A stretch of DNA of 64,000 nucleotides from assembly GCF_003350475.1 (NCBI RefSeq), contig NZ_QQAV01000004.1, forward strand, positions 124,001 through 188,000. The letters run 5' to 3'. Positions within the stretch are counted from its first letter, which is position 1, and each line of letters starts with the position of its first letter. Source of the stretch: Pseudacidovorax intermedius (GTDB taxonomy: Bacteria; Pseudomonadota; Gammaproteobacteria; Burkholderiales; Burkholderiaceae_C). Below, piece after piece: positions 25,375 through 49,971 of this stretch. Position numbers and translations under genes: made by a program. Below the pieces are notes generated by a model. It did no database searches. It was not told the origin of the DNA and saw only the letters and a list, made by a program, of their open reading frames with translations.

Positions 25375-26178
25375 TCAGAGCGCCGCCCCCGCCGCCTCGA
25401 GTGCCGGCTTGACGCTTTCCAGCGCCCCACCGCCGTCGCAGGGAATCACGGCGCCCGAGATGTAGCCCGCATAGGACGAGCCCAGGAACAGGGCCAGGTT
25501 GGCGATGTCGTCCAGCCCGCCGAAACGCTGCAGCGGGACCTGCCGGCGCGCGAACTCGCGGTCCTCCGGCGTCGGCGCCATCAGCTTGCGGAAGCCTTCG
25601 GTCCCATCGATGGGCCCGGGCGAGATGCCGTTGAGCCGGATGCCCTCCCCGCCCCATTCGAGCGCCAGCGCGCGCGTGAGCTGATCCACACCCGCCTTGG
25701 CGGCGCTGGCATGGGCCTGGTAACGCATGGGCACGACGGACTGCGGCGCCGTGATGTTGATCACCGAAGCGCCCGGCCGGCGCAGGTGTGCATGCGCCTG
25801 GCGCAGCACATGGAAGGTGCCCAGCAGGTCGATGTCCACCACGACCTTGAAGCCGTTGGCCGACATGTCCTTGGCTGCGCACAGGAAGTTGCCGGCGGCG
25901 CCGGAGACCAGCACGTCGATGGGACCGAAGGCCTCGGCCGACCGCGCGAAGGCCGCACCCACGGCGTCGAAGTCGCGCACATCGGCGCTGACACCCTGGA
26001 CCTCGCCGCCGTGCTGGCGCAGCGCGGCGACCGCCGCATCGACGTTCTCCGGCTTACGGCTCGCCACGGTGAGACGGGCGCCCTGGCGCGCGAAGGCATG
26101 GGCGATGCCCAGGTTGATGCCGGTGGTGCCGCCGAACACCACGACATGGCGGCCGGTGAAGTCGAGATCGATCTGCAT
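25375..26178 (-). CDS. SDR oxidoreductase resembling 2,4-dienoyl-CoA reductase
   Basis: This 267-residue short-chain dehydrogenase has an NAD(P)-binding loop GGTTGINLGIA. In place of the usual Tyr-X3-Lys it shows His-X-Ser-X2-Lys (QAHASAAKAGVDQLTRALAL), and it continues with LNGISPGPIDGTEG. This pattern is the one seen in peroxisomal-type 2,4-dienoyl-CoA reductases (DECR2), where His replaces Tyr. It therefore probably reduces an unsaturated acyl-CoA, which fits the surrounding acyl-CoA genes. It follows the AraC-type gene on the same strand with a 30-nt gap and is likely the last gene of the 28307-25375 unit. Confidence 0.85.
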   Translation of the reverse strand: MQIDLDFTGRHVVVFGGTTGINLGIAHAFARQGARLTVASRKPENVDAAVAALRQHGGEVQGVSADVRDFDAVGAAFARSAEAFGPIDVLVSGAAGNFLCAAKDMSANGFKVVVDIDLLGTFHVLRQAHAHLRRPGASVINITAPQSVVPMRYQAHASAAKAGVDQLTRALALEWGGEGIRLNGISPGPIDGTEGFRKLMAPTPEDREFARRQVPLQRFGGLDDIANLALFLGSSYAGYISGAVIPCDGGGALESVKPALEAAGAAL

Positions 26179-26208
26179 GGAAGGAAGGCTGCAAGCGAAG
26201 AGGCAGCG

Positions 26209-27060
26209 TCAATGGAAGGCGAAACGCGGCAGGGCGGCGGCACCGCTGCCATAGAGCGCCAGCCGTCTACAGCCGGCAAAGATCGACTTGGGCGTGAGCC
26301 CGTAGATCTGCCGGATCGAGTGGCTGAAATGGGTCGAATCCGGATAGCCGACATCCAGCGCGATGGCGGCCAGGTTGGCGTTCCGGGTGACGAAATAGAG
26401 CAGGCTGCGTGCGCGCTGCCAGGTGCGGAAGCTGCGGAACGGCGCCTCCACCTCGGCGCGGAACAGATGCAGGAAGCGCGACACCGACAGATGGCAGCTG
26501 GCCGCGCAGTCCTCGGCCGGGAAATGGCGGTTGGGGTCGTCCTTGATGCGTGCCAGCACCTGGGCGATGCGGCGGTCCATGGGCCGCGCAGGCAAGGCCG
26601 CACCGAAGAAGGCGCGGTCGAAGTCGGCGGTGCTGGCGTACTGCCGCGTACTGCCGAGCCGGAAGCGCAGCAACGCCTCGCGCAGCGACTGCACGGCCTG
26701 CGGGTCTTGGATGGCCCCCCGCCCGGCACGAAGCACGCCGCACAGATCGGCCGCACGCACCGTGTCGGCCTCGACGAGCACATTGCAGATCATCCGGTCC
26801 ACCGAGACGATGCGGTGCGGGACGTAGGGCGGCACCACCGACAGCAAGGTCTCCTCCCAGCGGCCGCCCTCCACGCAGATGCGATGCGGACGGGCGAGCG
26901 ACAGGTACAGCGAATAGGCGCCGAAGGTGCGCACCGAGGGCGCGCCCAGCAGGCCCACGTACAGCACCCGGTCGGCGTTGAGCCACATCAGCGGCTCGGC
27001 CGGCCCGGCCACGGCCGCCGGTTCCGCTTTCCCCCGTGCGGGATCGGTCGCACTGTGCAT
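26209..27060 (-). CDS. AraC family transcriptional regulator
   Basis: This 283-residue protein has a variable N-terminal half and a C-terminal AraC DNA-binding domain with two helix-turn-helix motifs (CHLSVSRFLHLFRAEVEAPF and LAAIALDVGYPDSTHFSHSI, ending in IYGLTPKSI). It lies between an acyl-CoA dehydrogenase and the SDR gene, reading the same way, so it is part of the catabolic unit. AraC proteins often activate promoters lacking a -35 by binding at about -41, which is the architecture of the six boxed promoters in this region. It is the best candidate activator; this is inference. Confidence 0.9.
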   Translation of the reverse strand: MHSATDPARGKAEPAAVAGPAEPLMWLNADRVLYVGLLGAPSVRTFGAYSLYLSLARPHRICVEGGRWEETLLSVVPPYVPHRIVSVDRMICNVLVEADTVRAADLCGVLRAGRGAIQDPQAVQSLREALLRFRLGSTRQYASTADFDRAFFGAALPARPMDRRIAQVLARIKDDPNRHFPAEDCAASCHLSVSRFLHLFRAEVEAPFRSFRTWQRARSLLYFVTRNANLAAIALDVGYPDSTHFSHSIRQIYGLTPKSIFAGCRRLALYGSGAAALPRFAFH

Positions 27061-27104
27061 CGATATCTCCTTGGCGGTCTGTAGGCAGAGCCGCGGTGCT
27101 GCGC

Positions 27105-28307
<1,203 letters not shown>

Positions 28308-28385
28308 GGGAGGCCTTTCGAGAGGTGGGGCAAGCAGCGGGCCACAAGGATCCGCGAGGTGTTTCGGCCAAATAGTAGGAGGATT

Positions 28386-28476: not shown

Positions 28477-28519
28477 AGCGTAGGACAAGGGCCCCTTGCC
28501 GTCTTGCGTCCACCGGCTG
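28477..28519 (-). promoter_or_regulatory. Boxed promoter of the ACAD-AraC-SDR unit
   Basis: In gene sense the box CAGCCGGTGGACGCAAG (28519-28503) is followed by exactly 20 nt and then TACGCT (28482-28477). No -35 consensus is seen. It is the most diverged of six such promoters in this region and leaves a leader of about 160 nt, within which the GntR operator lies. Confidence 0.6.
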
Positions 28520-29342: not shown

Positions 29343-30410
29343 TCAGCGCCGAACCACGGCCATACGCAGCCGGCCCACGACGCCACTCGGGAAGAAGTAC
29401 ACCGACAGCACGAACACCAGGCCGAACCAGAGCATCCAGCGGTCGGGGTGGAACAGCTTGGCCAGCAGCGGCGCGGCGGCCAGGGCGCCGCTGAGCCCCG
29501 CCATCAGGCTCTGCAGGTAGTTCTCGGCCACGATGTACAGCGTCACGCCGATGACCGCGCCGTAGACGGTGCCCAGCCCACCGATCACGGCCATCAGCAG
29601 GATGTTGAGCATCACGTTGAAGCCCACCGTGGTCTGCGGCCCCACGTAGCGCAACCACAGCGCCATCAGGATGCCGGCACAGGTGGCCAGTGCCGCGGCC
29701 AGGCAGTTGACGGCGATGCGGTAGTGGAGCGTGCGATAGCCGATGGCCTCGGCCCGGAACTCGTTCTCGCGGATGGCCTCCAGCACGCGCCCGAAGCGCG
29801 AGTTGACCACCCGCAGCATGAGCAGGAAGAGCAGCAGCGACACGCCGAAGACCAGGTAGTAGGTCAGCAACCGGCCGTTGATGGCCGTGCCCAGCACCTC
29901 GTCCTCGACCAGTCGGAAGGCCGGCGTCAGGGCCTGCGGCAGGCGGAAGGTGCGGCCATCGTCGCCGCCGGTGATGCCGCTCAGGCGCATCACCAGGGCG
30001 CCGAAGGCGGCCCCGAAGGCCAGCGTCATCATGGTGTAGAAGATGGCCTTGATCCGCAGCGAGATCAGCGCGATCAGGAAGGACAGCAGCACCGACAGCC
30101 CGATCGCCGCCAGCGCGCCGACGCCCATGGCCGTCCACGTGGGCCCCAGCGTGTGCATGGCAATGGCCACGCCATAGGCGCCGATGCCATAGAACATGGC
30201 ATGCGCGAAGGACACCACGCCGCAGTAGCCCAGCAGCAGGTCGAAGGACGCCACCAGCACGATGAATACGCAGATGGTGGCCGCCACGTTCAACGGCCGG
30301 GCGCCCGAGAAGAGGAAAGGCGCCGTGGCCAGGTAGAACAGCACCAGGAGCAGCAGCACGGTCAGCGCCCGGCTGCGCGGCAGGTCGCCCGAAAGGAGTC
30401 GTGTGAGCAT
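29343..30410 (-). CDS. Branched-chain amino acid-type ABC transporter permease (LivM)
   Basis: This 355-residue integral membrane protein has about eight to ten helices and LivM signatures, including GYCGVVSFAHAMFYGIGAYG and AIRENEFRAEAIGYRT (EAA-like coupling loop), then MAVIGGLGTVYGAVIG. It is the last gene of the long minus-strand operon that starts with the acyl-CoA carboxylase at 42675. With LivH, LivF, LivG and the binding protein it forms a complete high-affinity importer. In this context the substrate is more likely an organic acid degraded by the operon than an amino acid. Confidence 0.93.
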   Translation of the reverse strand: MLTRLLSGDLPRSRALTVLLLLVLFYLATAPFLFSGARPLNVAATICVFIVLVASFDLLLGYCGVVSFAHAMFYGIGAYGVAIAMHTLGPTWTAMGVGALAAIGLSVLLSFLIALISLRIKAIFYTMMTLAFGAAFGALVMRLSGITGGDDGRTFRLPQALTPAFRLVEDEVLGTAINGRLLTYYLVFGVSLLLFLLMLRVVNSRFGRVLEAIRENEFRAEAIGYRTLHYRIAVNCLAAALATCAGILMALWLRYVGPQTTVGFNVMLNILLMAVIGGLGTVYGAVIGVTLYIVAENYLQSLMAGLSGALAAAPLLAKLFHPDRWMLWFGLVFVLSVYFFPSGVVGRLRMAVVRR

Positions 30411-30423
30411 CGCGGGTGCCTTC

Positions 30424-31488
30424 CTACGGCTTGTGGACCGGGTACAGCCCCTGCGGCCGCCACAGCAGCACGGCCATCATCACGAGGATGTTGGACACCA
30501 GCGCCAGGTCGGGCAGCAGAAAGCTCACGTAATTGGTGGTCAGCGCCACCAGCATGGCACCGGCGAAGCAGCCGGCCACCGAGCCCAGCCCGCCGATGAT
30601 GACGATGATGAGCATCTGCACCAGCACCTCGGCGCCGATGGCCACGGTGAACTGCTCGCGGTAGAAGCCCCACATCACGCCGCCCAGGCCCGCCAGTGCC
30701 GAGCCGGCCACGAACACGCCCACGAACACCATGCGGACGCGGTAGCCGAGGGCCTCGACCATGCCCCGGTTTTCCACGCCCGCGCGGATCAGCAGGCCGA
30801 TGCGCGTGCGCCCGAGCACCAGCGTCAGCCCGATGAAGACGGCCAGCCCCACGCCCACGGCCACCAGCCGGTAGCGCTCGATGGCCACGTCGTCGCCCAG
30901 CAGGATCGAGCCGCGCAGGGCCTCGGGCAGCGGCAGCAGCATCTGGTTGGCGCCGAACACCACCAGCACCAGCTGCTCCATGACGATCATGGCGCCGATG
31001 GTGATGAGGATCTGCTTGAGATGGTCGCCATAGACCGGCTTCACGAACAGCCGCTCGTACACCCAGCCCAGCAGCGCCGTCACGGCCATGGCCACGGCGA
31101 TCACGGCCAGGACGGCGGCCATGCCGGCCCAGACCGACGCCGACTGCAGCAGGCCCTGCAAGGGCCCGACCATCAGCGTCGCGGTGTAGGCGCCGACCGC
31201 CACGAAGGCCGCGTGGCCGAGATTCATCACGTCCATGAGGCCGAAGACCAGCGTGAGGCCACTGGCCATGATGAACAGCATCATGCCCATGGCCAGGGCC
31301 GCCACGGTCAGCGTGACCCAGGTGGGCAGGCTGCCCGTGACCGGCAGCGCGACGGCGATGAAGGCCAGGATGACCAGGACGGGCACCAGGTCGCGTCGCC
31401 GGCCCGGCAGGGCCTCCAGCGCTGCAGGTGCGGCGGGCATGGCCGCGGCCTGCCGCCGCGCGGCCAGGGTGGAGTCGGTGGCGGACAT
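30424..31488 (-). CDS. Branched-chain amino acid-type ABC transporter permease (LivH)
   Basis: This 354-residue permease carries LivH features: ASGLTLVFGLMDVMNLGHAAFV near the first third and AGVENRGMVEALGYRV (EAA-type loop), then MLIIVIIGGLGSVAGCFAGA. The N-terminus is extended by about 40 mostly hydrophilic residues compared with short LivH proteins. The start at 31488 (MSATDS) is preferred to an in-frame ATG at 31521 because it follows the livF stop more naturally. It pairs with the LivM-type permease 13 nt downstream. Confidence 0.92.
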   Translation of the reverse strand: MSATDSTLAARRQAAAMPAAPAALEALPGRRRDLVPVLVILAFIAVALPVTGSLPTWVTLTVAALAMGMMLFIMASGLTLVFGLMDVMNLGHAAFVAVGAYTATLMVGPLQGLLQSASVWAGMAAVLAVIAVAMAVTALLGWVYERLFVKPVYGDHLKQILITIGAMIVMEQLVLVVFGANQMLLPLPEALRGSILLGDDVAIERYRLVAVGVGLAVFIGLTLVLGRTRIGLLIRAGVENRGMVEALGYRVRMVFVGVFVAGSALAGLGGVMWGFYREQFTVAIGAEVLVQMLIIVIIGGLGSVAGCFAGAMLVALTTNYVSFLLPDLALVSNILVMMAVLLWRPQGLYPVHKP

Positions 31489-31501
31489 TCGTCGGTCTCC
31501 C

Positions 31502-32254
31502 TCAATGGACGGCGCCGGCATGCAGGCCGAGCAGCCGGGCCTGCAGCGCCTCGTCCGCGTCCAGCGCGGCCATGGTGCCGGTGTGCACGATGCGGCCGTC
31601 GTCCATCACCGCGACATGGTCGCCCAGCGCACGCACGAAATGGAAGTTCTGCTCCACCAGCAGGATGGTGGTGCCGCGGGCCTTCAGGGCCTCGAAGGCA
31701 TCGGCCAGGTTGTCGACGATGGCCGGCGCGAGGCCCTTTGTGGGCTCGTCGATCAGCAGCAGCTTGCGCGGCTCGACGATGGCGCGGGCGATGGCCACCA
31801 TCTGCTTCTGCCCACCCGACAGCGTGCCGCCCGGTCGCAGCCAGAAGCGCTTGAGCGCCGGGAAGAGCCCGAAGATCCACGCCAGCCTCGCCTCGTCGAA
31901 GCGCCCGCCGATGGCTGCCAGGCGCAGGTTCTCCTGCACCGTGAGCCCGGCGAACACGCCCATGTCCTCGGGAACGAAGGCGATGCCGCGGCGTGCGATG
32001 TCCGGCGTGCGGCTGGCGGTGATGTCCTCGCCATCGAAGCGCAGCGTGCCGCGGCTGGCGTGCCACAGGCCCATGATCGTGCGCAGGGTGGTGCTCTTGC
32101 CGGCGCCGTTGCGGCCCAGCAGCACCGTCAGGCCGGCGCGCGGAACCTGAAGGTCCACGCCCTGCAGGATGTGGTATTCGCCGATGTGGGTGTGCACGCC
32201 GGTGAGCGACAGCAGCGCGTCGTCGCCCGTCTTCGGCTCCGGCATCTCATGCAT
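31502..32254 (-). CDS. ABC transporter ATP-binding protein (LivF)
   Basis: This 250-residue ABC ATPase has Walker A GRNGAGKST, signature LSGGQKQMVAIARA, Walker B LLLIDEPTKGLAP and the LivF-type start LTGVHTHIGEYHILQGVDL. It overlaps the end of the livG-type gene by 8 nt, which is typical of coupled liv genes. It drives the LivHM permease. Confidence 0.93.
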   Translation of the reverse strand: MHEMPEPKTGDDALLSLTGVHTHIGEYHILQGVDLQVPRAGLTVLLGRNGAGKSTTLRTIMGLWHASRGTLRFDGEDITASRTPDIARRGIAFVPEDMGVFAGLTVQENLRLAAIGGRFDEARLAWIFGLFPALKRFWLRPGGTLSGGQKQMVAIARAIVEPRKLLLIDEPTKGLAPAIVDNLADAFEALKARGTTILLVEQNFHFVRALGDHVAVMDDGRIVHTGTMAALDADEALQARLLGLHAGAVH

Positions 32255-33071
32255 GGGCCACCTCCCTGCGCGCCGTGCGCTGGCGGCGCACGCCGAGGTA
32301 AGCCTCCTGCACGACGGCCGAGGCCATCACCTCGGCGGGCATGCCGTCAGCCACCAGGCGGCCGTTGTGCAGCACGACGATGCGGTCGGCGAGCGAACGG
32401 ATCACGTCCATCTTGTGCTCCACCAGAAGGATGGTGCGGTCGCCCTGCGCCTTCAGGCGCGCGATCAGGTCCAGGATCACGGGCACCTCGTCCACGCTCA
32501 TGCCGGCCGTGGGCTCGTCGAGCATGACGACCTGCGGCTCCAGCGCCATCAGGATGGCGACCTCCAGCTTGCGCTTGTCGCCGTGCGACAGCCGCGCCGC
32601 CTGCTCGTCCAGGCGCGCGGCCAAGCCCACCTGCTGCACATGCTGGCGGGCCTGCTCCACCAGGTCGGCCCGGCTGCGCCACACGGCCAGCATGTTGAAG
32701 CCGGCGCGGTGGCGGCTCTGCACCGCCAGCCGCACGTTCTCCAGCACGCTCAGCCGCGGGAACAGGTGGGTGAGCTGGAAGGCGCGGCCGATGCCGCGGG
32801 CCGTGCGCCGCGCGGCGTCGAGCCGCGTGATGTCGTCCCCATGCAGCAGCACGCGACCCGCCGTGGCCGGCAACTGGCCCGAGAGCAGGTTGAAGTAGGT
32901 CGTCTTGCCGGCCCCGTTGGGCCCGACGATGGCCGTCAGCGTTCCCGCATGGAAGGCCGCGCTCACGTCGTCCACCGCGGCATGGCCGCCGAAGCGGATG
33001 CCCAGTCCGCGGCTCTCCAGGACCGGCGCACGCGCTTCAGGCGGGCGGACTTGCGCTGTCGGGTCGTGCAT
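32247..33071 (-). CDS. ABC transporter ATP-binding protein (LivG)
   Basis: This 274-residue ABC ATPase has Walker A GPNGAGKTTYF, a signature of the LivG form LSHGDKRKLEVAI, Walker B VVMLDEPTAGMS and the usual C-terminal HKMDVIRSLADRIVVLHNGR. About 20 extra residues at the N-terminus precede the first beta strand (LESRGLGIRFGGHAAV). The gene lies 4 nt after the binding-protein stop and overlaps livF. Confidence 0.93.
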   Translation of the reverse strand: MHDPTAQVRPPEARAPVLESRGLGIRFGGHAAVDDVSAAFHAGTLTAIVGPNGAGKTTYFNLLSGQLPATAGRVLLHGDDITRLDAARRTARGIGRAFQLTHLFPRLSVLENVRLAVQSRHRAGFNMLAVWRSRADLVEQARQHVQQVGLAARLDEQAARLSHGDKRKLEVAILMALEPQVVMLDEPTAGMSVDEVPVILDLIARLKAQGDRTILLVEHKMDVIRSLADRIVVLHNGRLVADGMPAEVMASAVVQEAYLGVRRQRTARREVAHA

Positions 33072-33075: not shown

Positions 33076-34269
33076 TCAGCGCTTGACGGTGATCGGCAGC
33101 GGCATCTCGGACGCCGGGATCTCGCGCACCAGCTCGAACAGGTCCCACTCGTTCGCGGGCGCCTTCTTCATGCGGAACTGGTACTGCGACTGCAGCGCCT
33201 GGTGGTCTTCCTTGCGGAAGGTCATCTTGCCCTTGGGCGTGTCGAACTCCATGCCTTCCATGGCGGCGATGAGCTTGGGCGTGTCGACCGAGTTGGCCTT
33301 CTTCACCCCGGCCACGATGGCCGCCGCCGTGACGAAGCCGCCCGCGGTGAACAGGTCCGGCGGCGTCTGGTAGCGCTTGCGGTGCTCGGCCACCAGCCAG
33401 TCGTTCATGGGGTTCTTGGGGAAGTCGTAGTAGTAGAAGGTGCCGCCGGTGATGTCCAGGCCACGCCAGGGCTTGGCGTTCTCGAGGTTGGCCCCACCGA
33501 TGGAAAGGAACTCGATGCCGTAGCGGCCCGGGTTGAGCTCCGAGATCTTGCGGATGGGATTGGGTGCGCCCCAGATCACCACCAGGTACTTCTTGCCCTG
33601 CACATCCTTCATGCGGTCGAAGATGCGCTGCATGGGCGCGGTGAAGTCGGTGGTGGACAGCGGGATGTACTCCTCGTGCACCACGGTCGCCTTCTTTTTG
33701 GTGGCGGCCAGCGCCTCTTTGGCCGCCTTCACGCCGTCCTTGCCGTAGACATAGTCGGGCGCCAGGAAGGCGACGTTGTCGCCATCCTTCAGCGCCGCGG
33801 CGCTGGCCAGCGCGTCCTGGAACGAGTTGCGGCTGGCGCGGAAGAGGTACTTGTTCCACGCCGAGCCCGTGAGCGAATCGGCGATGGCCGGCTCGACCAT
33901 CAGCAGCTTGCCGTACTCCTCCGCCACCGGCGCCATCGAGAGCGCGCCGCCGGACCAGGAGGTGCCGATGGCGATGTCGGCCTTGTCGTCCGCCAGCGCC
34001 TCGGTGAGCATGGCCTTGGACAGCTCGGGCTTCATCTGGTCGTCCTTGACGATCAGCTCGATCTTGCGGCCGAGCAGCGTCATCGATCCCTGGGTGAGGT
34101 ATTCGAGGCCCAGCCGCAGGCCGCGCTCGGTGTCGCGGGCATAGGCCTCGGACGGCCCGGTCTTGCTGGCAATGAGCGCGATCTTGATCGGCTTGTCCTG
34201 CGCGAAGGCCTGTGGCGCGAGCCAGCAGGCCGCGGCCGCGGTGGCGGCCATGGCGAGTTTCTTCAACAT
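33076..34269 (-). CDS. ABC transporter substrate-binding protein (Liv-type)
   Basis: This 397-residue periplasmic protein has a signal peptide (MLKKLAMAATAAAACWLAPQ, cut after AFAQ) followed by the type-I fold of leucine-binding proteins: IKIALIASKTGPSEAYARDT, GRKIELIVKDDQMKPELSKA and a C-terminal lobe with FTAGGFVTAAAIVAGVKKA. It delivers the substrate to LivHMGF. The downstream genes encode no amino-acid enzymes, so the ligand is probably a carboxylic acid used by the acyl-CoA synthetase upstream. The frame is open far beyond the start, but the signal peptide fixes 34269. Confidence 0.93.
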   Translation of the reverse strand: MLKKLAMAATAAAACWLAPQAFAQDKPIKIALIASKTGPSEAYARDTERGLRLGLEYLTQGSMTLLGRKIELIVKDDQMKPELSKAMLTEALADDKADIAIGTSWSGGALSMAPVAEEYGKLLMVEPAIADSLTGSAWNKYLFRASRNSFQDALASAAALKDGDNVAFLAPDYVYGKDGVKAAKEALAATKKKATVVHEEYIPLSTTDFTAPMQRIFDRMKDVQGKKYLVVIWGAPNPIRKISELNPGRYGIEFLSIGGANLENAKPWRGLDITGGTFYYYDFPKNPMNDWLVAEHRKRYQTPPDLFTAGGFVTAAAIVAGVKKANSVDTPKLIAAMEGMEFDTPKGKMTFRKEDHQALQSQYQFRMKKAPANEWDLFELVREIPASEMPLPITVKR

Positions 34270-38180: not shown

Positions 38181-38978
38181 TCAGCGTCCCGTCCACACCG
38201 GCTTTCGCTTTTCGTTAAAGGCGGCCAGGCCCTCTCGCGCGTCCTCGGTCATGGCGAGCAGCGCGATCTGGCTCTCGGTGTAGGCGATGCCTTCGTCGAA
38301 GGACATGGCGGCCATGGCCCGCATGGCGTACTTGCCGCGGCGCAGCGCCGTGGGCGACTTGTCGGCCAGGCGGTCGACCAGCCACTGGGTCTTCGCGTCC
38401 AGTTCGGCCGCGGGCACCACATGGTTGAGCAGGCCGGCCGCGTGGGCTTCGGCGGCGCCGAAGGGCTCGCCGCTCAGGCACCACTCGCGCAGCACGCGGC
38501 GCGGCACCAGGCCCTGCAGCAGGCTCAGCACCTGCATGGGAAAAAGGCCGATCTTGACCTCAGGCAGGCCGAACTGCACGGCCTCCGCCGCGACGGCCAT
38601 GTCGGTCATGCACAGCAGCCCGATGCCGCCGGCCATGCAGGTGCCGTTGATGCGCGCAATGCTGGGCAGCGTGGCGTTCTGCACCTCGCGCAGCAGGTCG
38701 GCGTAGTCGATGTTGGGCCGCGAGAGGTCGAAGGCGAAGCCGGCGCCCGGTTGCAGGTCGCCCCCCGCACAGAAGGCCTTGTCGCCAGCCCCGGTGAGCA
38801 CGATCACGCGCACCTCGGGGTCGGCATGGGCGCGCCGCCAGCCCTCGCGGATGCCCGCGACGACCTCCTTGTTGATGGCATTGCGCTTGTCGGGCCGGTT
38901 GAGGATGACCCACAGGGCATGGCCCCGCTTCTCGCACAGCACGGCGGGCGCCGCGGCAGGCGCTGCGTTCTCTGTCAT
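38181..38978 (-). CDS. Enoyl-CoA hydratase/isomerase family protein
   Basis: This 265-residue crotonase-fold protein keeps the oxyanion hole (AGGDLQPGAGF, then MAGGIGLLCMTD) and the second catalytic Glu (FGLPEVKIGLFPM). The first catalytic Glu of classic hydratases is replaced by Gly in AGGIGLL. This is seen in several non-classical crotonases, so it may hydrate a carboxylated substrate such as a glutaconyl-CoA (AtuE- or LiuC-like) or act as an isomerase. Its place right after the carboxylase genes favours the first. A gap of 50 nt separates it from the carboxylase alpha gene upstream. Confidence 0.88.
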   Translation of the reverse strand: MTENAAPAAAPAVLCEKRGHALWVILNRPDKRNAINKEVVAGIREGWRRAHADPEVRVIVLTGAGDKAFCAGGDLQPGAGFAFDLSRPNIDYADLLREVQNATLPSIARINGTCMAGGIGLLCMTDMAVAAEAVQFGLPEVKIGLFPMQVLSLLQGLVPRRVLREWCLSGEPFGAAEAHAAGLLNHVVPAAELDAKTQWLVDRLADKSPTALRRGKYAMRAMAAMSFDEGIAYTESQIALLAMTEDAREGLAAFNEKRKPVWTGR

Positions 38979-39028: not shown

Positions 39029-41056
39029 TCAGGCGGGTACGGCCTCGGTCACCGGCTCGATCTCGGCGACGACGCGGCTCGCCGCCACCTGGTCGCCGGT
39101 CCTCACATGCAGGGCGACCAACCGGCCCGCCACGGGCGCGGCATGCACGTGCTCCATCTTCATGGCCTCCAGCGTGAGCACGGGCTGGCCGGGCTGCACC
39201 ATGTCGCCGATGGCGGCCAGCACCGCCACCACACGGCCGTTCATGGAAGCGCGCACCTTGCCGTCACCGCCCGCCTCGCCCTGGCGCGCCGCCGCGGCGC
39301 GGGTACGGTCCTCGATGCGGATCGGCAGGCCGGCGTAGTGCAGCAGCAGCGTGGCGCCGTCGCGGTGGAAGGCGGCGCTCTCCTGCAGGCCGTCGCAGGT
39401 GAAGCGCGCATGGTGCGGCGCCAGCCCGTCGAGCGCGACGCGGTAGGTGGCCTCGCCGATGTCGACGGCAAAGTGGCGCCCCTCGGTCAGCACGACGCTG
39501 GCGGCCACCGCCTCACCCGCCACCTGCAGGCGCATGCCGATGGGCAGGCTGGGCGCCAGGCGCCGCTGGCCGGCGGCCTGCGCCGCCGCGGTGGTCTCGT
39601 ACAGCAGCACGGCGGCGATGGCGGCTGCGCGCGCGCGCAGTGCGGCATCCGGCGCCAGCAATACGTCCTGGTGGTCGGCGATGAAGGCGGTGGTCGCACC
39701 ACCGGCCGCAAAGACGTCATGGCCCAGGCAGCGGTGCAGGAAGGCCTGGTTGGTGGTGACGCCAAGCGCCACCGCATCTTCCAAACCGGCCATCAGCAGA
39801 CGGCGTGCGTCCTCGCGGCTGTCGCCATGGGCGATGAGCTTGGCGATCATCGAGTCGTAATACGGCGGGATCTCGGCGCCGGACTGCAGCGCATGCTCCA
39901 CCCGCAGCTGCGGCGGCATCTGCCACAGGGCCATGGTGCCGCTCTGGGGCATGAAGCCCTGGTCGGCGTCCTCGGCGCACAGGCGCACCTCGATGGCATG
40001 GCCGCTAAACCGCACATCCTCCTGCGCGATGCCCAGGGGCTCTCCCGCCGCCACGCGCAACTGCAGGGCCACCAGGTCCAGGCCGGTGATGGCCTCGGTG
40101 ACCGGATGCTCCACCTGTAGCCGCGTGTTCATCTCCATGAAGTAGTAGCGGCCCTCGGCGTCCAGCAGGAACTCGAGCGTGCCCGCGCCTTCGTAGCGGA
40201 TGGCCTTGACCGCCGCCACCGCCGTGGCACCCATGCGCGCGCGCAACGCTGCGTCGACGGCGGGCGACGGCGCCTCCTCGATCAGCTTCTGGTGCCGGCG
40301 TTGCACCGAGCAGTCGCGCTCGCCCAGGTGGATGGCGTGGCCGTGGCGGTCGGCGAACACCTGGATCTCGATGTGCCGGGGCCGCACGATGGCGCGCTCC
40401 AGGATCACCTCGGGGTCGCCGAAGGCGCTCTGCGCCTCGGAGCGGGCGCTGCGCAGCAGCTCCGGAAACTCGGCCGCGCTGTTCACCAGCCTCATGCCGC
40501 GCCCCCCGCCACCGGCCGTGGCCTTGATCATGACCGGGAAGCCGATGCGCCCGGCCTCGTCGGCCAGACGCGCCTCGCTCTGGTCCTCGCCCTGGTAGCC
40601 GGGAATGCACGGCACGCCCGCGGCCTGCATCAGCACCTTGGCGCCGGCCTTGTTGCCCATGGCGCGGATCGCCTCGGCCGAGGGACCGATGAAGACCAAC
40701 CCGGCGTCGTGGCAGGCCTGGGCGAAGTCCTCGTTCTCGGCCAGGAAGCCGTAGCCGGGGTGTACCGCGTCGGCCCCGCTGCGGAGGGCGGCCTCGATCA
40801 GCGCCGAAATGCGCAGATAGCTCTGCGCCGGCAGCGGCTCGCCGATGCATACCGCCTGGTCGGCCTCGCGCACATGGCGTGCGCCGGCATCGGCGGTGGA
40901 ATGGACAGCCACGGTGCGGTAGCCCAGGGCGCGGGCGCTGCGGATGATGCGCAGTGCGATCTCCCCGCGGTTGGCAATGAGGATCTTGCGGAAGGGCGTG
41001 CGCGCGGGGGTATCGGCGGTCATGGCGTGGAGGTTCGATCGGTCGCGGGAGGTCAT
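39029..41056 (-). CDS. Acyl-CoA carboxylase alpha subunit (biotin carboxylase + biotin carrier)
   Basis: This is a protein of about 675 residues. The biotin carboxylase domain (about 15-460) starts FRKILIANRGEIALRIIRSA, has the ATP-grasp Gly loop MIKATAGGGGRGMRL and the RLQVEHPVTE motif. A linker domain leads to the C-terminal biotin carrier with the biotinyl Lys in LEAMKMEHVHA. It carboxylates biotin and serves the beta subunit. The start at 41056 overlaps the beta stop (ATGA), suggesting coupling; an in-frame ATG 33 nt further in (41023) is a good alternative. This is the AtuF/LiuD (geranyl-/methylcrotonyl-CoA carboxylase) position. Confidence 0.93.
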   Translation of the reverse strand: MTSRDRSNLHAMTADTPARTPFRKILIANRGEIALRIIRSARALGYRTVAVHSTADAGARHVREADQAVCIGEPLPAQSYLRISALIEAALRSGADAVHPGYGFLAENEDFAQACHDAGLVFIGPSAEAIRAMGNKAGAKVLMQAAGVPCIPGYQGEDQSEARLADEAGRIGFPVMIKATAGGGGRGMRLVNSAAEFPELLRSARSEAQSAFGDPEVILERAIVRPRHIEIQVFADRHGHAIHLGERDCSVQRRHQKLIEEAPSPAVDAALRARMGATAVAAVKAIRYEGAGTLEFLLDAEGRYYFMEMNTRLQVEHPVTEAITGLDLVALQLRVAAGEPLGIAQEDVRFSGHAIEVRLCAEDADQGFMPQSGTMALWQMPPQLRVEHALQSGAEIPPYYDSMIAKLIAHGDSREDARRLLMAGLEDAVALGVTTNQAFLHRCLGHDVFAAGGATTAFIADHQDVLLAPDAALRARAAAIAAVLLYETTAAAQAAGQRRLAPSLPIGMRLQVAGEAVAASVVLTEGRHFAVDIGEATYRVALDGLAPHHARFTCDGLQESAAFHRDGATLLLHYAGLPIRIEDRTRAAAARQGEAGGDGKVRASMNGRVVAVLAAIGDMVQPGQPVLTLEAMKMEHVHAAPVAGRLVALHVRTGDQVAASRVVAEIEPVTEAVPA

Positions 41057-42675
41057 GGCCGGGCCACGGAGAACTGCATGGCCTGCGGCTGCCGCTGTTC
41101 GGCATCGCGGCAGATGGCCAGCACGTTGGCCAGCACGGCGCGGGTGTCGCGCGGGTCGATCACACCGTCGTCCAGCAGGTGCGCGCTGGTGGTGAACACG
41201 CTCATCTGGCTGTCGAAGCGCTCCACGATGCGGCGCTCCAGCTCGGCCAGCTTGGCGTGGTCCACCTCGCCGCCCTTGCGCTTCATGGCGGCCTCGGTCA
41301 CGTTGACCATCGTCTGCGCCGCCTGCTCGCCGCCCATCACGGCCGTCTTGGCATTGGGCCAACTGAAGCAGAAGCGCGGATGGAAGCCGCGGCCGCACAT
41401 GCCGTAGTTGCCGGCCCCGAACGAAGCGCCGCAGTAGATGGTGATCTGCGGCACCGTCGCATTGGTCACGGCCTGGATCATCTTGGAGCCGTGCTTGATG
41501 ATGCCGGCCTCCTCGTACGCACGGCCCACCATGAAGCCGGTCGTGTTGTTGAGGTACAGGATGGGCGTGCGCGACTGGCAGCAGGCCTGGATGAAGTGCG
41601 TGGCCTTGGCCGCGCCGGCCGGGTCGATGGGCCCGTTGTTGGTGACGATGCCCAGCGGCATGCCTTCGATCTTGATGTGGCCGACCACGGTGGCGCCGCC
41701 GTAGTTCTGGCCGAATTCGAGAAAGTCGGAGTCGTCGGCGATGCGGGCGATGACCTGCTTCATGTCCACGGGCCGCTTGTGGTCCATGGGCATGATGCCC
41801 AGCAGTTCCTCCGCGTCATGGCGTGGCGGCTTGAAGGAGCGCTCGGGCTCAACCGGCACGCTGCGCTGCCAGTCGATGTTGGCCAGGATCTCGCGGGCCA
41901 GGCGGATGGCGTCGCGGTCATCCTCGGCCAGGTAGTCGCCCAGGCCGGAGATGGACGTGTGCATGAGCGCGCCGCCCAGTTCCTCCTCCGTCGCGATCTC
42001 GCCGGTGGCGGCCTTGAGCAGCGGCGGCCCGGCCAGGAAGGCCCGAGAGCGGCCGCGCACCATGATGATGTAGTCCGAGAGGCCCGTCTGGTAGGCCCCG
42101 CCCGCGGTGGACGAGCCATGCGTGACGGTGACCACCGGCAGGCCGGCCGCGGAGATGCGCGCGATGTTGCGGAACAGGCTGCCGCCGGTGACGAATTCCT
42201 CGACCTTGTAGGTCATGAGGTTGGCGCCGGCCGACTCCACGAGCTGCACGTAGGGCAGCTTGTTCTCCAGCGCCAGCTCCTGCATGCGCAATTGCTTGGG
42301 GATGCCCATGGGCTGCAGGGCACCGGCGTCGATGCCGGAGTCCGAGGCATTGACCATGACGCGCACGCCGCTGACCCGGCCGATGCCGCCGATGACGCCG
42401 CCTCCGGGGACGCTTCGGTCGAGGTCGGGGTTGTCGAGGCCCAGGCCAGCGAGGGCACCGATCTCGAGGAAGGGCGTGCCGGGGTCGAGCAGCAAGGCCA
42501 GGCGCTCGCGCGGGAGCAGTTGGCCGCGTTTCTCGAAGCGCTCGCGGGACTTGGCGGAGGTGGCGATGCTGCGTTGCTGATAAGTGCGCACGCGCTCGAT
42601 GAGCGCGAGCATGCCGGCCCGGTTGGCTTCGAAGGCATCGCTGCCGGGGGAGATGGTCGACTCGATGATGGCCAT
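41053..42675 (-). CDS. Acyl-CoA carboxylase beta subunit (carboxyltransferase)
   Basis: This 540-residue biotin-dependent carboxyltransferase has two crotonase-like domains and MCC/GCC-type features: QLLPRERLALLLDPGTPFLE, YVQLVESAGANLMTY, VTHGSSTAGGAYQTGLSDY and YCGASFGAGNYGMCGRGF. Overall it looks like the methylcrotonyl/geranyl-CoA group and not propionyl-CoA carboxylase. Which acyl-CoA it uses cannot be decided by eye; the absence of a nearby HMG-CoA lyase argues against a plain leucine cluster. It opens the 42675-29343 operon and has a boxed promoter at 42737-42779. Confidence 0.93.
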   Translation of the reverse strand: MAIIESTISPGSDAFEANRAGMLALIERVRTYQQRSIATSAKSRERFEKRGQLLPRERLALLLDPGTPFLEIGALAGLGLDNPDLDRSVPGGGVIGGIGRVSGVRVMVNASDSGIDAGALQPMGIPKQLRMQELALENKLPYVQLVESAGANLMTYKVEEFVTGGSLFRNIARISAAGLPVVTVTHGSSTAGGAYQTGLSDYIIMVRGRSRAFLAGPPLLKAATGEIATEEELGGALMHTSISGLGDYLAEDDRDAIRLAREILANIDWQRSVPVEPERSFKPPRHDAEELLGIMPMDHKRPVDMKQVIARIADDSDFLEFGQNYGGATVVGHIKIEGMPLGIVTNNGPIDPAGAAKATHFIQACCQSRTPILYLNNTTGFMVGRAYEEAGIIKHGSKMIQAVTNATVPQITIYCGASFGAGNYGMCGRGFHPRFCFSWPNAKTAVMGGEQAAQTMVNVTEAAMKRKGGEVDHAKLAELERRIVERFDSQMSVFTTSAHLLDDGVIDPRDTRAVLANVLAICRDAEQRQPQAMQFSVARP

Positions 42676-42736: not shown

Positions 42737-42779
42737 AGCTTAGGCAGCGCGGCCTTGCGGGTCTTGCGCGAAGTGGCTG
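42737..42779 (-). promoter_or_regulatory. Boxed promoter of the carboxylase/ABC operon
   Basis: In gene sense the box CAGCCACTTCGCGCAAG (42779-42763) is followed by exactly 20 nt and TAAGCT (42742-42737); the start codon is at 42675. The predicted transcript start is near 42730. It drives the ten-gene operon from the beta subunit to livM. Confidence 0.75.
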
Positions 42780-45159: not shown

Positions 45160-46335
45160 TCAGATGCCCAGCTGCCGCGCAGCCAGGTCCTTCATCACTT
45201 CCTCGGCGCCTCCGCCGATCATCATGACCTTGACCTCGCGGTAGATGCGCTCGCTCTTCGTGCCGCGCATGAAGCCCATGCCGCCCAGCAGCTGCACGGC
45301 CTGATCGGCACAGAACTGCATGGTCTGCGTGGCCTGCACCTTGGCCAGGCACACGCGCGCCACCAGTTGCGCCGGCTGCGCCAGCCGGTGCTCGATGCGG
45401 TAGGCCAGGTCATGGAGCAGCGCGCGGGTCGCGTCGATGCGCATGACCATGTCCATCAGCTTGTGACGCACCACTTGCCGGTCGGACAGCAGGCTGCCGC
45501 CCACGCTGCGCTGGCCTGTCCAGTCCAGTGCCTCGTTCAGACAGACCTCGGCATAACCGCAGGCCAGCGCGGCCATCAGCAGGCGCTCGCTGTTGAAGTT
45601 GTTCATCACCAGCTTGAAGCCGTGGTTCTCTTCGCCGACGAGATGCGCGACGGGCACCCGGCACTGGTCGAAGCGCAGGTGTGCGGTGTCGGAGCTCCAC
45701 CAGCCCATCTTCTTGAGCGGCGTCCGGGTCAGGCCGGGCGTGTCGCCGTCGATCACCAGCAGCGAGATGCCGCCCGCGCCCTTGGCCGCCGGGTCGGTGC
45801 GCACGGCCGTGGTGATGAAGTCGGCGCGCACGCCGGAGGTGATGAAGGTCTTCTCGCCGTTGACGATGTAGTGGTCGCCGTCCCGCACGGCCGTCGTGCG
45901 CAGGCTGGCCACGTCGGAGCCGCCCGAGGGCTCGGTGATGGCCAGGGCCGCGATCTTCTGCCCCGCCAGCACCGGTGGAATCACCCGCTGGCGCAGCGCC
46001 TCGCTCCCGGCCTTGAGCACCGGCGGCAGCGCGATGCTGTGCGACAGGAGCGAAGCCTGCACGCCGCCGCTGCCGCAGCGCGCGAATTCCTCGGCCACGA
46101 CCAGTTGGTAGAACAGGTCCGCGGGCGTGCCGCCATAGGCCTCGGGGTAGCCCAGGCCCTGCACGCCCAGCTCCGCCATGCGCGCGTAAAGCGTACGCGG
46201 AAAGGTCTCGGCCTCGTCCCACTCGTGCACATGGGGCGTGATCTCGCGGGCGATGAAGTCGCGCAGGCTCGCGCGGAACTGCTCGTGCTCCGGCGTGAAA
46301 TGGAAGGGAAGCGGCGGCGCTTCGAGCAGGTCCAT
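45160..46335 (-). CDS. Acyl-CoA dehydrogenase (AtuD/citronellyl-CoA-dehydrogenase-like position)
   Basis: This 391-residue acyl-CoA dehydrogenase has the FAD/substrate motif ALAITEPSGGSDVASLRT, YIVNGEKTFITSG, the arginine-rich helix DRQVVRHKLMDMVMRID, and the C-terminal QLLGGMGFMRGTKSERIYRE, then GGGAEEVMKDL. The start ATG at 46335 has AGGAGA at a good distance; an upstream ATG at 46359 is less likely. It lies opposite the acyl-CoA synthetase and close to atuA, like atuD in Pseudomonas. Its promoter shares a dyad with that of the divergent synthetase. Confidence 0.92.
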   Translation of the reverse strand: MDLLEAPPLPFHFTPEHEQFRASLRDFIAREITPHVHEWDEAETFPRTLYARMAELGVQGLGYPEAYGGTPADLFYQLVVAEEFARCGSGGVQASLLSHSIALPPVLKAGSEALRQRVIPPVLAGQKIAALAITEPSGGSDVASLRTTAVRDGDHYIVNGEKTFITSGVRADFITTAVRTDPAAKGAGGISLLVIDGDTPGLTRTPLKKMGWWSSDTAHLRFDQCRVPVAHLVGEENHGFKLVMNNFNSERLLMAALACGYAEVCLNEALDWTGQRSVGGSLLSDRQVVRHKLMDMVMRIDATRALLHDLAYRIEHRLAQPAQLVARVCLAKVQATQTMQFCADQAVQLLGGMGFMRGTKSERIYREVKVMMIGGGAEEVMKDLAARQLGI

Positions 46336-46358: not shown

Positions 46359-46401
46359 AGGCTACCGGCAGCGGAGATCCCAGTCTTGTGCGAACTGGCT
46401 G
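46359..46401 (-). promoter_or_regulatory. Boxed promoter of the ACAD-TIGR03084-DUF2156 unit
   Basis: In gene sense the box CAGCCAGTTCGCACAAG (46401-46385) is followed by exactly 20 nt and TAGCCT (46364-46359), with the start codon at 46335. It lies back to back with the box of the divergent synthetase, with only 4 nt between, so the two form one 38-bp dyad at 46385-46422. Confidence 0.75.
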
Positions 46402-46405: not shown

Positions 46406-46448
46406 CAGCGAGTTCACGCAAGCCAGCCAGGCCGCCGCCGCCTAGGCT
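46406..46448 (+). promoter_or_regulatory. Boxed promoter of the acyl-CoA synthetase
   Basis: The box CAGCGAGTTCACGCAAG (46406-46422) is followed by exactly 20 nt and TAGGCT (46443-46448); the start codon is at 46486. With the opposing box at 46385-46401 it forms a dyad that two activator molecules could fill to fire both directions. Confidence 0.75.
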
Positions 46449-46485: not shown

Positions 46486-48057
46486 ATGGCCGCTCTGCCC
46501 CCTGCCGATACCCTCGTCCCGCCGGTCCTGCTGCTGCCGGCGGCCCTGCACCACGCAGCCCTGCGCCATCACCAGGTGACGGCCTACATCGATGGCGAGC
46601 GCCGCTTCGGCTTTGCCGACCTGGATGCCGCAAGCCAGCGGCTCGCCAGCGCGCTGCTGCACATGGGCCTGGTGCGCGGCGACCGCATCGCCGTGCTGTG
46701 CGTCAACCGGATCGAATGGCTGCAGCTCTTCTTTGCCGCGACGCGCATCGGCGTCGCCGTCGTGGCACTGAGCCCGCGCTACCGCGAAGCGGAGATCGGC
46801 TTCATGCTCGCGGACAGCGAGGCACGGGCCGTGTTCACCACGCGCTGCATCGACGGCTTCGACTTCGAGGCTGCCATCGAGGCGATGGCGCCCGCGCTGC
46901 CTTCGCTGCGCCGCGTGCTCGCCATTGATGGCCAGGCCTTCGCGACGATGGCCGGCGCCCGCATCGACGAGGATGCGCTCCAGGCCACCACGGCGGCCGT
47001 GCAGCCCGACGACCTGGCGATGGTGATCTACACCTCGGGCACCACCGGCAGGCCCAAGGGCTGTGCGCTCACCCACCGCAGCCTGCTCGCCTCGGCGGCC
47101 GCCCAAGCCCGTCACACCCGCGTGCAGCCGGGCGAGCTGATGCAGCTGGCCAACCCCTTCAACCACGTCGGCGGCATCACCTGCGGCATCCTGGCCCAGA
47201 TGCTGGCAGGCGGCAGCTGCGAGCTGGTGCCGGTGTTCAAGGCCAAGACCGTGCTGGACATGATCCGCCGGCATCCACCGGCCATCCTGGTGGGCGTGCC
47301 GACCATGATGACGCTGCTGCTCACCCACCCGGAGTCGGCCGAGGTCGACCTGGCGTCGGTGCGGCTGATCATCACCGGCGGCTCCAATGCCGATGCCACG
47401 CTGCTGTCGCAGCTGCGCCAGCGCATGCCGGCCGCCACCGTGATGAACCTCTACGGGCTCTCCGAAGCCTCGGGCGCGCTGGTGATGACGCCCTGGCACG
47501 GCACGGACGAGGACCTGATGCGCAGCATCGGCACGCCGCTCGAAGGTGTCGAGGTGCGTGTGTGCGCGCCCGACGGCCGCACCGTGCCCACTGGCGAGAT
47601 CGGCGAGCTGCAGTTCCGCGGCGGCGGCGTGGTCCGCGGCTACATCGGCGCCGCGGCCGGCCAGGGCGGCTTCGAGGACGGCTGGCTGCGCACCGGCGAC
47701 CTGGGCGAGGTGGACGCGCGCGGTTTCATCACCTTGCGTGGCCGCATGAAGGACATGTACATCCAGGGTGGCTTCAATGTCTACCCGGCGGAGGTGGAAG
47801 CCCTCATCGCCACCCATCCCGCAGTGCTGATGGTGGCCGGCGTGGGCGTGCCCGACCCGGTGCTCGGCGAGGTGGGACGCTACTTCGTCGTGCCCAAGCC
47901 TGGCAGCACGCTCACCGCCGAACAGGTGCTCGCGCACTGCGAGGGCCGCATCGCCGACTACAAGATGCCGCGCCAGGTGGTGCTGCGCGAGGCACTGCCG
48001 CTCACGCCGGCCGGCAAAATCCACAAGGCGGCGCTGCGCGAGGACGAGTCGGCCTAG
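46486..48057 (+). CDS. Acyl-CoA synthetase (AMP-binding), second copy
   Basis: This 523-residue ANL ligase has P-loop VIYTSGTTGRPKGCALTHRS, A5 motif MNLYGLSEASGALV, hinge LRTGDLGEVDARGFITLRGR and C-terminal Lys in LTPAGKIHKAALRE. It is quite different from the ligase at 34326, so the two probably activate different acids or different intermediates. It lies upstream of atuA (91-nt gap with its own boxed promoter) and corresponds in position to atuH. The ATG at 46486 is the only reasonable start in a much longer open frame. Confidence 0.94.
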   Translation: MAALPPADTLVPPVLLLPAALHHAALRHHQVTAYIDGERRFGFADLDAASQRLASALLHMGLVRGDRIAVLCVNRIEWLQLFFAATRIGVAVVALSPRYREAEIGFMLADSEARAVFTTRCIDGFDFEAAIEAMAPALPSLRRVLAIDGQAFATMAGARIDEDALQATTAAVQPDDLAMVIYTSGTTGRPKGCALTHRSLLASAAAQARHTRVQPGELMQLANPFNHVGGITCGILAQMLAGGSCELVPVFKAKTVLDMIRRHPPAILVGVPTMMTLLLTHPESAEVDLASVRLIITGGSNADATLLSQLRQRMPAATVMNLYGLSEASGALVMTPWHGTDEDLMRSIGTPLEGVEVRVCAPDGRTVPTGEIGELQFRGGGVVRGYIGAAAGQGGFEDGWLRTGDLGEVDARGFITLRGRMKDMYIQGGFNVYPAEVEALIATHPAVLMVAGVGVPDPVLGEVGRYFVVPKPGSTLTAEQVLAHCEGRIADYKMPRQVVLREALPLTPAGKIHKAALREDESA

Positions 48058-48082
48058 GCCGCAGATCGGTGCGCACCGACAT

Positions 48083-48125
48083 CAGCGAGTTGGCGCAAGC
48101 CCCGTGCCACCCGTCTCGCTAAGCT
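48083..48125 (+). promoter_or_regulatory. Boxed promoter of atuA
   Basis: The box CAGCGAGTTGGCGCAAG (48083-48099) is followed by exactly 20 nt and TAAGCT (48120-48125); the start codon is at 48148. It differs from the synthetase box at only two of 17 positions. It lets atuA be expressed apart from read-through from the synthetase gene. Confidence 0.75.
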
Positions 48126-48147
48126 GGTCTCATCCAAGGAAACGCGC

Positions 48148-49971
48148 ATGACAGACACGCCGAACAACGCCTCCCGCACGGTCCGCATCGGCGGCGCCTC
48201 GGGCTTCTGGGGCGACAGCATGGTGGCCGCGCCGCAGCTCGTGAAGGGCGGCCGGCTCGACTACCTGGTCTTCGACTACCTGGCCGAGACCACCATGGCC
48301 ATCCTGGCCGCGGCCCGGGCCAAGAACCCCGAACTGGGTTACGCCACCGACTTCGTCGACATCGCCATGAAGCCCGTGCTGGCCGAGGTCAAGCGCCAGG
48401 GCATCAAGGTGGTCAGCAATGCGGGCGGCATCAACCCGCACGGCTGCGCCGCCGCGCTCAAGGCCGTGGCCGAGGCGCAGGGCATCGCACTGCGCATCGC
48501 CGTGATCGAGGGCGATGACGTGAGCAGCCTGATGCCCGGCCTGCGCGCCGACGGCGTGCGCGACATGTTCACCGGCGAGGCCCTGCCCGAGAAGGTGCTG
48601 AGCGCCAACGCCTACCTGGGCGCCGCGCCCATCGCCGCCGCGCTGGCCGCCGGTGCCGAGGTGGTCATCACCGGCCGCTGCGTGGACAGCGCCGTCACGC
48701 TGGGCCCGCTGATGCACGAGTTCGGCTGGACGGCCACTCAGCACGACCTGCTCGCGTCGGGCAGCCTGGCCGGCCACATCATCGAATGCGGCTGCCAGGC
48801 CACCGGCGGCCTGCACACCGACTGGGAGGACATCCCGGACTGGGCCCACATCGGCTACCCGATCGTGGAATGCCATGCCGACGGCAGCTTCGTCGTCACC
48901 AAGCCGGAGGGCACCGGCGGCAAGGTGATCCGCGCAGGCGTGGTGGAACAGCTGCTCTACGAGATCGGTGACCCGGGCGCCTACCTGCTGCCCGAGGTGA
49001 GTTGCGACTTCCGCGAAGTGCGCGTCACCCAGCAGGGCGAGAACCGCGTGCACGTGAGCCCGGCCAAAGGCCGCGCGCCGACGCCCCATTACAAGGTGTC
49101 GGCCACGCAGCTGGACGGCTTCCGCTGCGCGGGCAGCATGGTGATCATCGGCATCGACGCCGAGAAGAAGGCGCGGCGCACGGCCGAGGCCATCCTCGAG
49201 CGCACCGGCGAGATCCTGCAGGCGCAGGGCCTGCCGCCCTTCACCTCCACCTACATCGAAGTCATCGGCGCCGAGACGCTCTACGGCCCGCACGCCCGCA
49301 CCCGCCAGGCGCGCGAGGTGATGATGCGCGTGGTGGCCAACCATCCGCAGAAGGCGGCACTGGCCATGTTCGCGCGCGAGATCGCGCCTTCCGGCACGTC
49401 ATGGTCGCCGGGCACCACCAGCCCCGGTGGCGGGCGACCGGCGGTGTCGCCGCTGGTCAAGCCCTTCGCCTTCCTGCTGGACAAGCGCGCGGTGCAGCCG
49501 GGCTTCGTGCTCAATGGCGTGCGTCATGCGGTGGCCGTCCCTGCCGGCGCGCAGGCCTCGCCCGTGCCGGCCCTGCCCGACCCACCCGCCTGGCGCCCTG
49601 ACGAACCCGCCACCGAGACCGTGCGCCTGATCGACCTGGCCTGGGCGCGCAGCGGCGACAAGGGCAACCTGTCCAACATCGGCGTGGTGGCGCGCCGGCC
49701 GCAGTGGCTGCCGCTGCTGTGGCACGCGCTGCAGCCGGCAGTGGTGGAGGCCTGGTTCAGGCACCTGCCCGCCGGGCACGTCACGCGCTACCACCTGCCC
49801 GGCACGGATGCGATGAACCTGCTGATCCACGATGCCCTCGACGGCGGCGGCCCTTCGTCCATGCGCATGGACCCGCTGGGCAAGGGCATGGCGCAGATGC
49901 TGCTGGACATGCCGGTCGCGGTGCCGCCCAGCGTGGCGGCCGAAGCACTCAGGCGCGCGGGCCGAGCATGA
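48148..49971 (+). CDS. atuA: Acyclic terpene utilisation protein AtuA (DUF1446)
   Basis: This 607-residue protein has the DUF1446 domain (about 10-455: [40 protein letters not shown] and [15 protein letters not shown]) and a C-terminal AtuA ferredoxin-like domain (about 485-600: [20 protein letters not shown]). In Pseudomonas AtuA is needed for growth on citronellol/geraniol, but its reaction is unknown. Similar two-domain proteins also occur in other carboxylase clusters, so the name shows family, not proven substrate. It overlaps the convergent ynfA-type gene by 23 nt. Confidence 0.9.

Follow-up and report, generated by a model that had tools for sequence, protein, structure and literature searches.

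An AraC-type regulator and its predicted operator in an atu-like acyl-CoA catabolic cluster of Pseudacidovorax intermedius

Background

The published regulons that we found for branched acyl-acid pathways use TetR, MerR or GntR proteins. The atu-type cluster of Pseudomonas has the TetR repressor AtuR/RdmA and 13-bp inverted repeats (PMC9973270), and a survey of 33 orthologous groups of Proteobacteria regulators assigns MerR, TetR and GntR proteins to pathways of this kind, LiuR being of the MerR, LiuQ and FadP of the TetR and FadR of the GntR type (PMC5343134), and the word AraC has no occurrence in the main text of that survey. Among enterobacterial class II activators of the MarA/SoxS/RamA group, MarA and RamA are small monomers in stress regulons (PMC8811837). 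Here, we analyse a 64,000-nt stretch of Pseudacidovorax intermedius DNA (the window, to which all plain coordinates refer), in which six promoters of a gene cluster at 25375-49971 share a 17-nt box. We propose that this box is the operator of the AraC-type protein encoded at 26209..27060 on the reverse strand, that the protein would act by class II activation and that the units of the cluster would be switched together, a prediction from sequence comparison to which we assign a probability of about 0.86.

The locus resembles the atu cluster of Pseudomonas (PMC9973270) in that a single regulated cluster encodes both AtuA and an enzyme of the geranyl-CoA carboxylase type, but the proposed regulator is of AraC type instead of a TetR repressor. 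The AtuR/RdmA-type 13-bp repeat, allowing at most two mismatches, has five matches in the window against 3.63 expected, none of them before atuA, and an AtuR-type operator was rejected because the repeat is not above chance there; no TetR protein was met among the window proteins scanned, which did not include every open reading frame (ORF). The proteobacterial regulons of LiuR, LiuQ, FadP, PsrA and FadR likewise serve to break down branched-chain amino acids or fatty acids and were recognised by comparative genomics. Unlike MarA, SoxS and RamA, the present system has a regulator with a sensor-like domain at its N-terminus, a box of different sequence and a regulon that is local and catabolic. 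The likeness of ToxT, Rns and CsvR to our AraC-type protein is one of fold only, and a shared fold shows no shared ligand; in a sequence profile search the protein had no match to these three at E 0.001, and three PDB hits cover its DNA-binding domain alone. We recognised no prior description of this regulator or box in the available open-licence literature, subscription papers being outside its scope, and within that literature the regulon is apparently new, although of a familiar type.

Six promoters share one box and one spacing

The initial annotation had placed in the window six boxes, each followed by a 20-nt gap and a -10 hexamer, and a search with the corresponding strict pattern (17-nt box, N20, TANSCT) returned precisely these six matches at the same positions, against none in 100 dinucleotide shuffles. 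Comparison of the six boxes also bore out that ten of 17 positions are invariant and that all boxes are intergenic and aimed at a gene. On the reverse strand, promoter 1 (28477..28519; box 28519-28503, 20 nt, -10 TACGCT) faces the genes of acyl-CoA dehydrogenase 1, the AraC-type protein and a short-chain dehydrogenase (SDR); promoter 2 (38095..38137; box 38137-38121, -10 TAGCCT) those of a FadB-like protein, acyl-CoA synthetase 1 and an ATP-binding cassette (ABC) transporter; promoter 3 (42737..42779; box 42779-42763, -10 TAAGCT) those of a carboxyltransferase, a biotin carboxylase and an enoyl-CoA hydratase; and promoter 4 (46359..46401; box 46401-46385, -10 TAGCCT) the gene of acyl-CoA dehydrogenase 2 with two others. 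Promoter 5 (46406..46448; box 46406-46422, -10 TAGGCT), on the forward strand, is back to back with promoter 4 and faces acyl-CoA synthetase 2, and promoter 6 (48083..48125; box 48083-48099, -10 TAAGCT) on the same strand faces atuA. With operons drawn from strand and short gaps, one box heads each transcription unit that could be drawn in 25375-49971, the GntR gene excepted; these units hold 18 annotated genes, the divergent GntR gene not counted.

A genome scan had been named as a check on whether the box stands at random genes at equal density, and it does not: across all 29 contigs of the genome (5,975,233 bases) the strict pattern matches only at the six sites of the cluster, and the reversed pattern nowhere. 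Patterns made by permuting the same letters with random gaps gave no match in 2000 trials. The absence of matches in the shuffles, the six strict genome sites and the absence of matches among the permuted patterns together lead us to reject a chance origin. When the -10 is relaxed to TANNNT, with a 20-nt gap and up to two mismatches, the genome has 35 matches against 23 in the control; seven of these are exact (the window's six and one at C1:504478, which precedes an acyl-CoA dehydrogenase gene), one has one mismatch and 27 have two. With a 21-nt gap and at most one mismatch there is a single match, at C1:524945 upstream of a paralogous AraC gene, and a single control match. A matrix built from 76 sites that lie outside the closest clusters and had been found with the same fixed bases scores the window's six at 26.9-38.5 and no other window position above 10.

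The arrangement of the sites is that of a class II promoter, with one orientation, a fixed distance to the -10 and an overlapped -35, and resembles described promoters of this class (PMC10268841, PMC8811837). The box is a single asymmetric site of 17-19 bp per promoter, with CAGCCAGTTnnCGCAAGAC as its commonest form in relatives, and the -10 has the sigma-70-like form TAnnCT. In relatives, the box continues as AAG-A/C-C where TTGACA would stand, 17 or 18 nt before the -10. The earlier statement that none of the promoters has a -35 thus holds insofar as the -35 is poor, the window's six matching TTGACA at no more than 3/6 positions, the limit by which a poor -35 is recognised (at most 3/6; PMC10268841); it needs amending in that the box extends over a weak -35 at the usual sigma-70 distance from the -10. 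The aligned hexamer is AAG[A/C]NN, whose first two bases, being fixed by the search pattern, mismatch TTGACA in 84/84 sites. No second upstream half-site was seen in these 84 sites in either orientation from -100 to -17, with a matrix that its fixed bases make harsh, and an AraC dimer on direct repeats was rejected on this ground.

Conservation of the box in related loci

Using the AraC-type protein alone as query, we fetched 80 loci from other genomes, with AraC identities of 47-98%; the window's protein shares 98% identity with one from Pseudacidovorax sp. NFM-22. A box expression with 10 fixed bases and no required -10 has 82 non-redundant matches in these loci and the window together, the window's six included, while five reversed or permuted control patterns (one with more fixed bases) have 0, 0, 5, 3 and 3. 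The box is followed by TAxxxT in 66/82 cases, at 20 nt in 48 and at 21 nt in 18, and any other distance from 0 to 44 occurs at most once. The fixed 20-nt spacing claimed for the box is thus true of all six window sites and becomes 20 or 21 nt among relatives. At the level of loci, an exact site with a -10 is present in 45/80 and one with at most one mismatch in 51/80, the reversed control being present in none.

Conservation before orthologous operons had also been named as a check, and box and spacing are indeed kept there, strongly for atuA and the carboxyltransferase gene and weakly for others. Counting orthologues of at least 50% identity in the 80 loci, with a site of at most two mismatches and a -10, and dropping four genes with less than 120 nt upstream, the site precedes 20/22 AtuA, 13/16 carboxyltransferase, 8/14 acyl-CoA dehydrogenase 2 and 3/7 synthetase 2 genes; exact sites precede 14/22 AtuA and 10/16 carboxyltransferase orthologues. 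Genes internal to the operons have the site in 0/13 (SDR), 0/6 (binding protein), 0/10 (permease), 0/16 (hydratase) and 1/16 (biotin carboxylase) cases, and the reversed control gives 0 for every gene. The first ORFs behind the boxes, picked mechanically, encode AtuA in 15 of 64 cases, carboxyltransferase in 11, acyl-CoA dehydrogenase in eight and AMP-binding proteins in seven, the remainder including ECH-domain (six), AraC-type (four) and 3HCDH-domain (two) proteins.

The box travels with the AraC gene

In a survey of 299 genomes of the family, with AraC called at E ≤1e-40 and sites at 20-21 nt, 18 genomes have the AraC gene, 28 have a site and 16 have both. The searches scored part of the first-look candidates (for example, 8/20), so that absence of AraC or AtuA here means absence at that depth. 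A site is present in 16/18 AraC genomes and in 12/281 without AraC (Fisher 3e-17). The 18 AraC genomes hold 40 sites and one control match. Each of the 12 genomes that have a site but no AraC has just one, and the control pattern has 10 matches among genomes lacking AraC. Multiple sites occur in 12 family genomes, all of which have the AraC gene. AtuA is present in 146/299 genomes. Since the site occurs in only 5/129 genomes with AtuA but without AraC, and in 7/152 with neither gene, the box travels with AraC and not with AtuA. Because some of these genomes are identical to, or overlap with, the fetched loci, this evidence is not wholly independent of that from the loci.

Beyond the family, a search of 274 class genomes found the AraC gene (E 1e-40) only in that of the window; 16 other class genomes have one box match each, which is the level of the reversed control (15 matches in 14 genomes). 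Among 399 genomes of the order searched with the AraC protein of locus L083, three have a match, one of them in another family (G832) and with a site nearby. The regulator family is found mostly in Comamonadaceae.

The AraC-type protein and its proposed recognition of the box

The protein encoded at 26209..27060 (283 aa; HTH_18, HTH_AraC) carries two helix-turn-helix motifs in its C-terminal domain, as AraC/XylS proteins do, and a separate N-terminal sensor domain, as in full-length members. Its structure model has a mean predicted local distance difference test (pLDDT) score of 89.3 and places the predicted recognition helices at 193-204 and 242-253. The DNA-binding domain is more strongly conserved than the sensor part across 84 AraC sequences (mean majority fraction 0.76 versus 0.59), with next to no change in the recognition helices SRFLHLF and YPDSTHFSHSIRQ. 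The clade of the window differs from the others at three positions of the domain (70% level), viz., 193 (Val/Phe), 215 (Gln/Lys) and 259 (Ser/Asp), and residue 193 is the start of the first predicted recognition helix.

This residue covaries with base 5 of the box. Counting by genome, requiring a -10 and ignoring the relatedness between genomes, G stands at base 5 in 11/16 sites of Val193 genomes and in 0/66 of Phe193 genomes (Fisher 3e-10); genomes set apart in this count are those with mixed residues (three G in 10 sites; the window's genome among them) and those with other residues (0/2). Locus L083, which lies outside the clade with Lys215 and Asp259, has Val193 and the sole G site with a -10 among Val193 loci outside the clade, and L080, a further Val193 locus outside it, has a C site with a -10 and a G box without one. 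The two AraC-bearing family genomes without an exact site have Ala193 (G132) and Glu193 (G289). The pairing of residue 193 and base 5 supports a reading of the box by the AraC-type protein and falls short of proof because relatedness was left uncorrected.

Several observations weigh against the proposed assignment of box to regulator. At one mismatch or fewer, 29/80 AraC loci lack a site in the stretch examined, some of these being on short contigs, and sites with up to two mismatches precede only 6/18 acyl-CoA dehydrogenase 1, 2/7 FadB, 1/6 synthetase 1 and 10/60 AraC genes. The covariation is largely that of one clade, and of the two Val193 proteins outside it, one goes with G and one with C; 5/16 sites in Val193 genomes do not have G at base 5, and boxes left uncounted because they have no -10 carry G there in some Phe193 loci (L027, L034, L038, L071). 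In addition, G241 (Ala193) has the box and G289 (Glu193) has a one-mismatch site before its carboxyltransferase gene.

Other candidate readers of the box and other possible modes of control

The initial annotation had offered an alternative sigma factor as the other candidate, which would read box and -10 as one bipartite promoter with no activator, and two conserved elements at a fixed spacing are what speaks for it. The box, however, is 17-19 nt long, its two conserved parts are separated by about one helical turn, and it extends into the -35 position at the usual sigma-70 spacing; the -10 is itself sigma-70-like, and both the presence of the box and its base 5 go with the AraC gene and its residue 193. 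The window proteins scanned, which did not cover every ORF, included no sigma factor, and no dedicated search for one was made. We regard this explanation as very improbable, and still less credit can be given to the GntR/FCD regulator encoded divergently from the acyl-CoA dehydrogenase 1-AraC-SDR operon (28575-29324). Its gene adjoins box 1 and has relatives in 12/81 loci, but it is absent from 41/51 loci with a site and the box precedes 0/12 of its orthologues, and as a reader of the box it was rejected on these counts. FCD regulators usually bind palindromes, which the asymmetric box does not resemble. It is very probably the AraC-type protein, rather than a sigma factor or the neighbouring GntR protein, that reads the box, because the box follows AraC across genomes and base 5 follows residue 193.

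The AraC-type protein might also bind the box and mainly repress, or answer an unrelated signal, in which case the units would not form one substrate-induced programme. A protein bound over the -35 might either block or recruit, the proposed ligand is putative and the substrate of the cluster is uncertain, AtuE not being among the best PDB hits of the hydratase at E 1e-40. On the other hand, the geometry and the weak -35 are those of activated class II promoters (PMC10268841), and a scan of 25000-43500 for sigma-70 consensus promoters had no hit, which is weak evidence as only 1.2 were expected in shuffles. We consider such repression or unrelated control improbable, and from the geometry we infer activation. 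The initial proposal of one regulon, with the box in a class II position and the protein of 26209..27060 as its reader, accordingly finds support in the exclusivity of the sites, their conservation, their co-occurrence with AraC, the helices and the covariation.

In the activation that we propose, the AraC-type protein would bind with helix-turn-helix 1 at the CAGC side of the box and with helix-turn-helix 2 at the CAAG side, beside region 4 of sigma-70, and would recruit RNA polymerase at promoters with a poor -35. The N-terminal cupin-like domain may sense a ligand of acyl type, possibly a branched acid or the CoA ester of one. The genes that could then be switched jointly serve uptake, activation, dehydrogenation, a geranyl-CoA-carboxylase-like step and hydration, and include atuA; the position of the AraC gene inside a controlled unit would provide positive feedback. 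The analysis yields predictions of the operator, the regulator and the targets of a regulon in which one regulator family would govern both AtuA and an atu-like acyl-CoA carboxylase pathway. This regulator is a candidate for the sensing of branched or terpenoid acids, and residue 193 with base 5 of the box may serve as a direct handle on recognition.

A paralogous AraC gene with the same box

The regulon is wider than the window. A paralogous AraC gene in the same genome (C1:523916-524692, 49% identity to the first) has the same box, at 21-nt spacing, upstream, and ABC-transporter, synthetase and binding-protein genes beside it. The helices of the two proteins are identical at 10/13 and 12/13 positions and their sensor parts at 52/130, and both paralogues may share boxes. 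Speculatively, paralogous AraC proteins with divergent sensors and near-identical helices might read one operator, so that several acyl-type signals would converge on one promoter code with residue 193 and base 5 tuning its specificity, the sensor being a cupin pocket of the ToxT/Rns kind that binds acyl compounds or fatty acids and has been turned to catabolic control; we regard this as a possibility on the unlikely side. The cluster of the second gene (G000 C1:504478-524988; also loci L106 and L107) contains a branched-chain-type transporter and a long acyl-CoA synthetase, with the boxed acyl-CoA dehydrogenase gene about 20 kb off.

Genes of the cluster

Judged by its encoded proteins, the cluster looks built for the breakdown of branched acyl acids and is atu-like. 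We call it only atu-like because the carboxyltransferase, biotin carboxylase and hydratase have differing nearest relatives. The carboxyltransferase subunit (41053..42675, reverse strand, as are all cluster genes listed here unless noted) is nearest among solved structures to the beta subunit of geranyl-CoA carboxylase (5ikl, 636.8 bits), followed by methylcrotonyl-CoA carboxylase (466.5); the biotin carboxylase subunit (39029..41023; Pfam, PDB) is nearest to the alpha subunit of methylcrotonyl-CoA carboxylase; and the enoyl-CoA hydratase family protein (38181..38978; NCBIfam below cut-offs, PDB) is nearest to crotonases of other kinds. Directly upstream of promoter 3, which heads these three genes, lies a 34-nt inverted repeat (97%, 19-nt loop; 42839-42925), of which a near-full copy (96%) occurs on contig C14 and arm pairs about 215 bp apart occur at three more places; it is perhaps a multi-copy element resembling a miniature inverted-repeat transposable element (MITE) or a repetitive extragenic palindromic (REP) sequence.

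The unit of promoter 2 runs in the order FadB-like protein, synthetase 1, binding protein, two ATPases and two permeases. It comprises a FadB/FadJ-like hydratase/dehydrogenase (35934..38051; NCBIfam, below equivalog cut-offs), acyl-CoA synthetase 1 (34326..35888; NCBIfam), a periplasmic binding protein (33076..34269; Peripla_BP_6) and a branched-chain-type ABC transporter (29343..33071; Pfam). Besides the AraC gene, the unit of promoter 1 has acyl-CoA dehydrogenase 1 (27105..28307; Pfam) and, as its last gene, the SDR (25375..26178; Pfam). Acyl-CoA dehydrogenase 2 (45160..46335) leads the unit of promoter 4, and on the forward strand stand acyl-CoA synthetase 2 (46486..48057; AMP-binding) and AtuA (48148..49971; PF07287, E 8.2e-145). 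An LPG_synthase_C protein (43434-44303) and an MDMPI_N/DinB-like protein (44300-45130), both assigned by Pfam, share the acyl-CoA catabolism operon of promoter 4, and near the cluster, at 23087-24349, lies a HipA-type gene with HipA_C and Couple_hipA domains.

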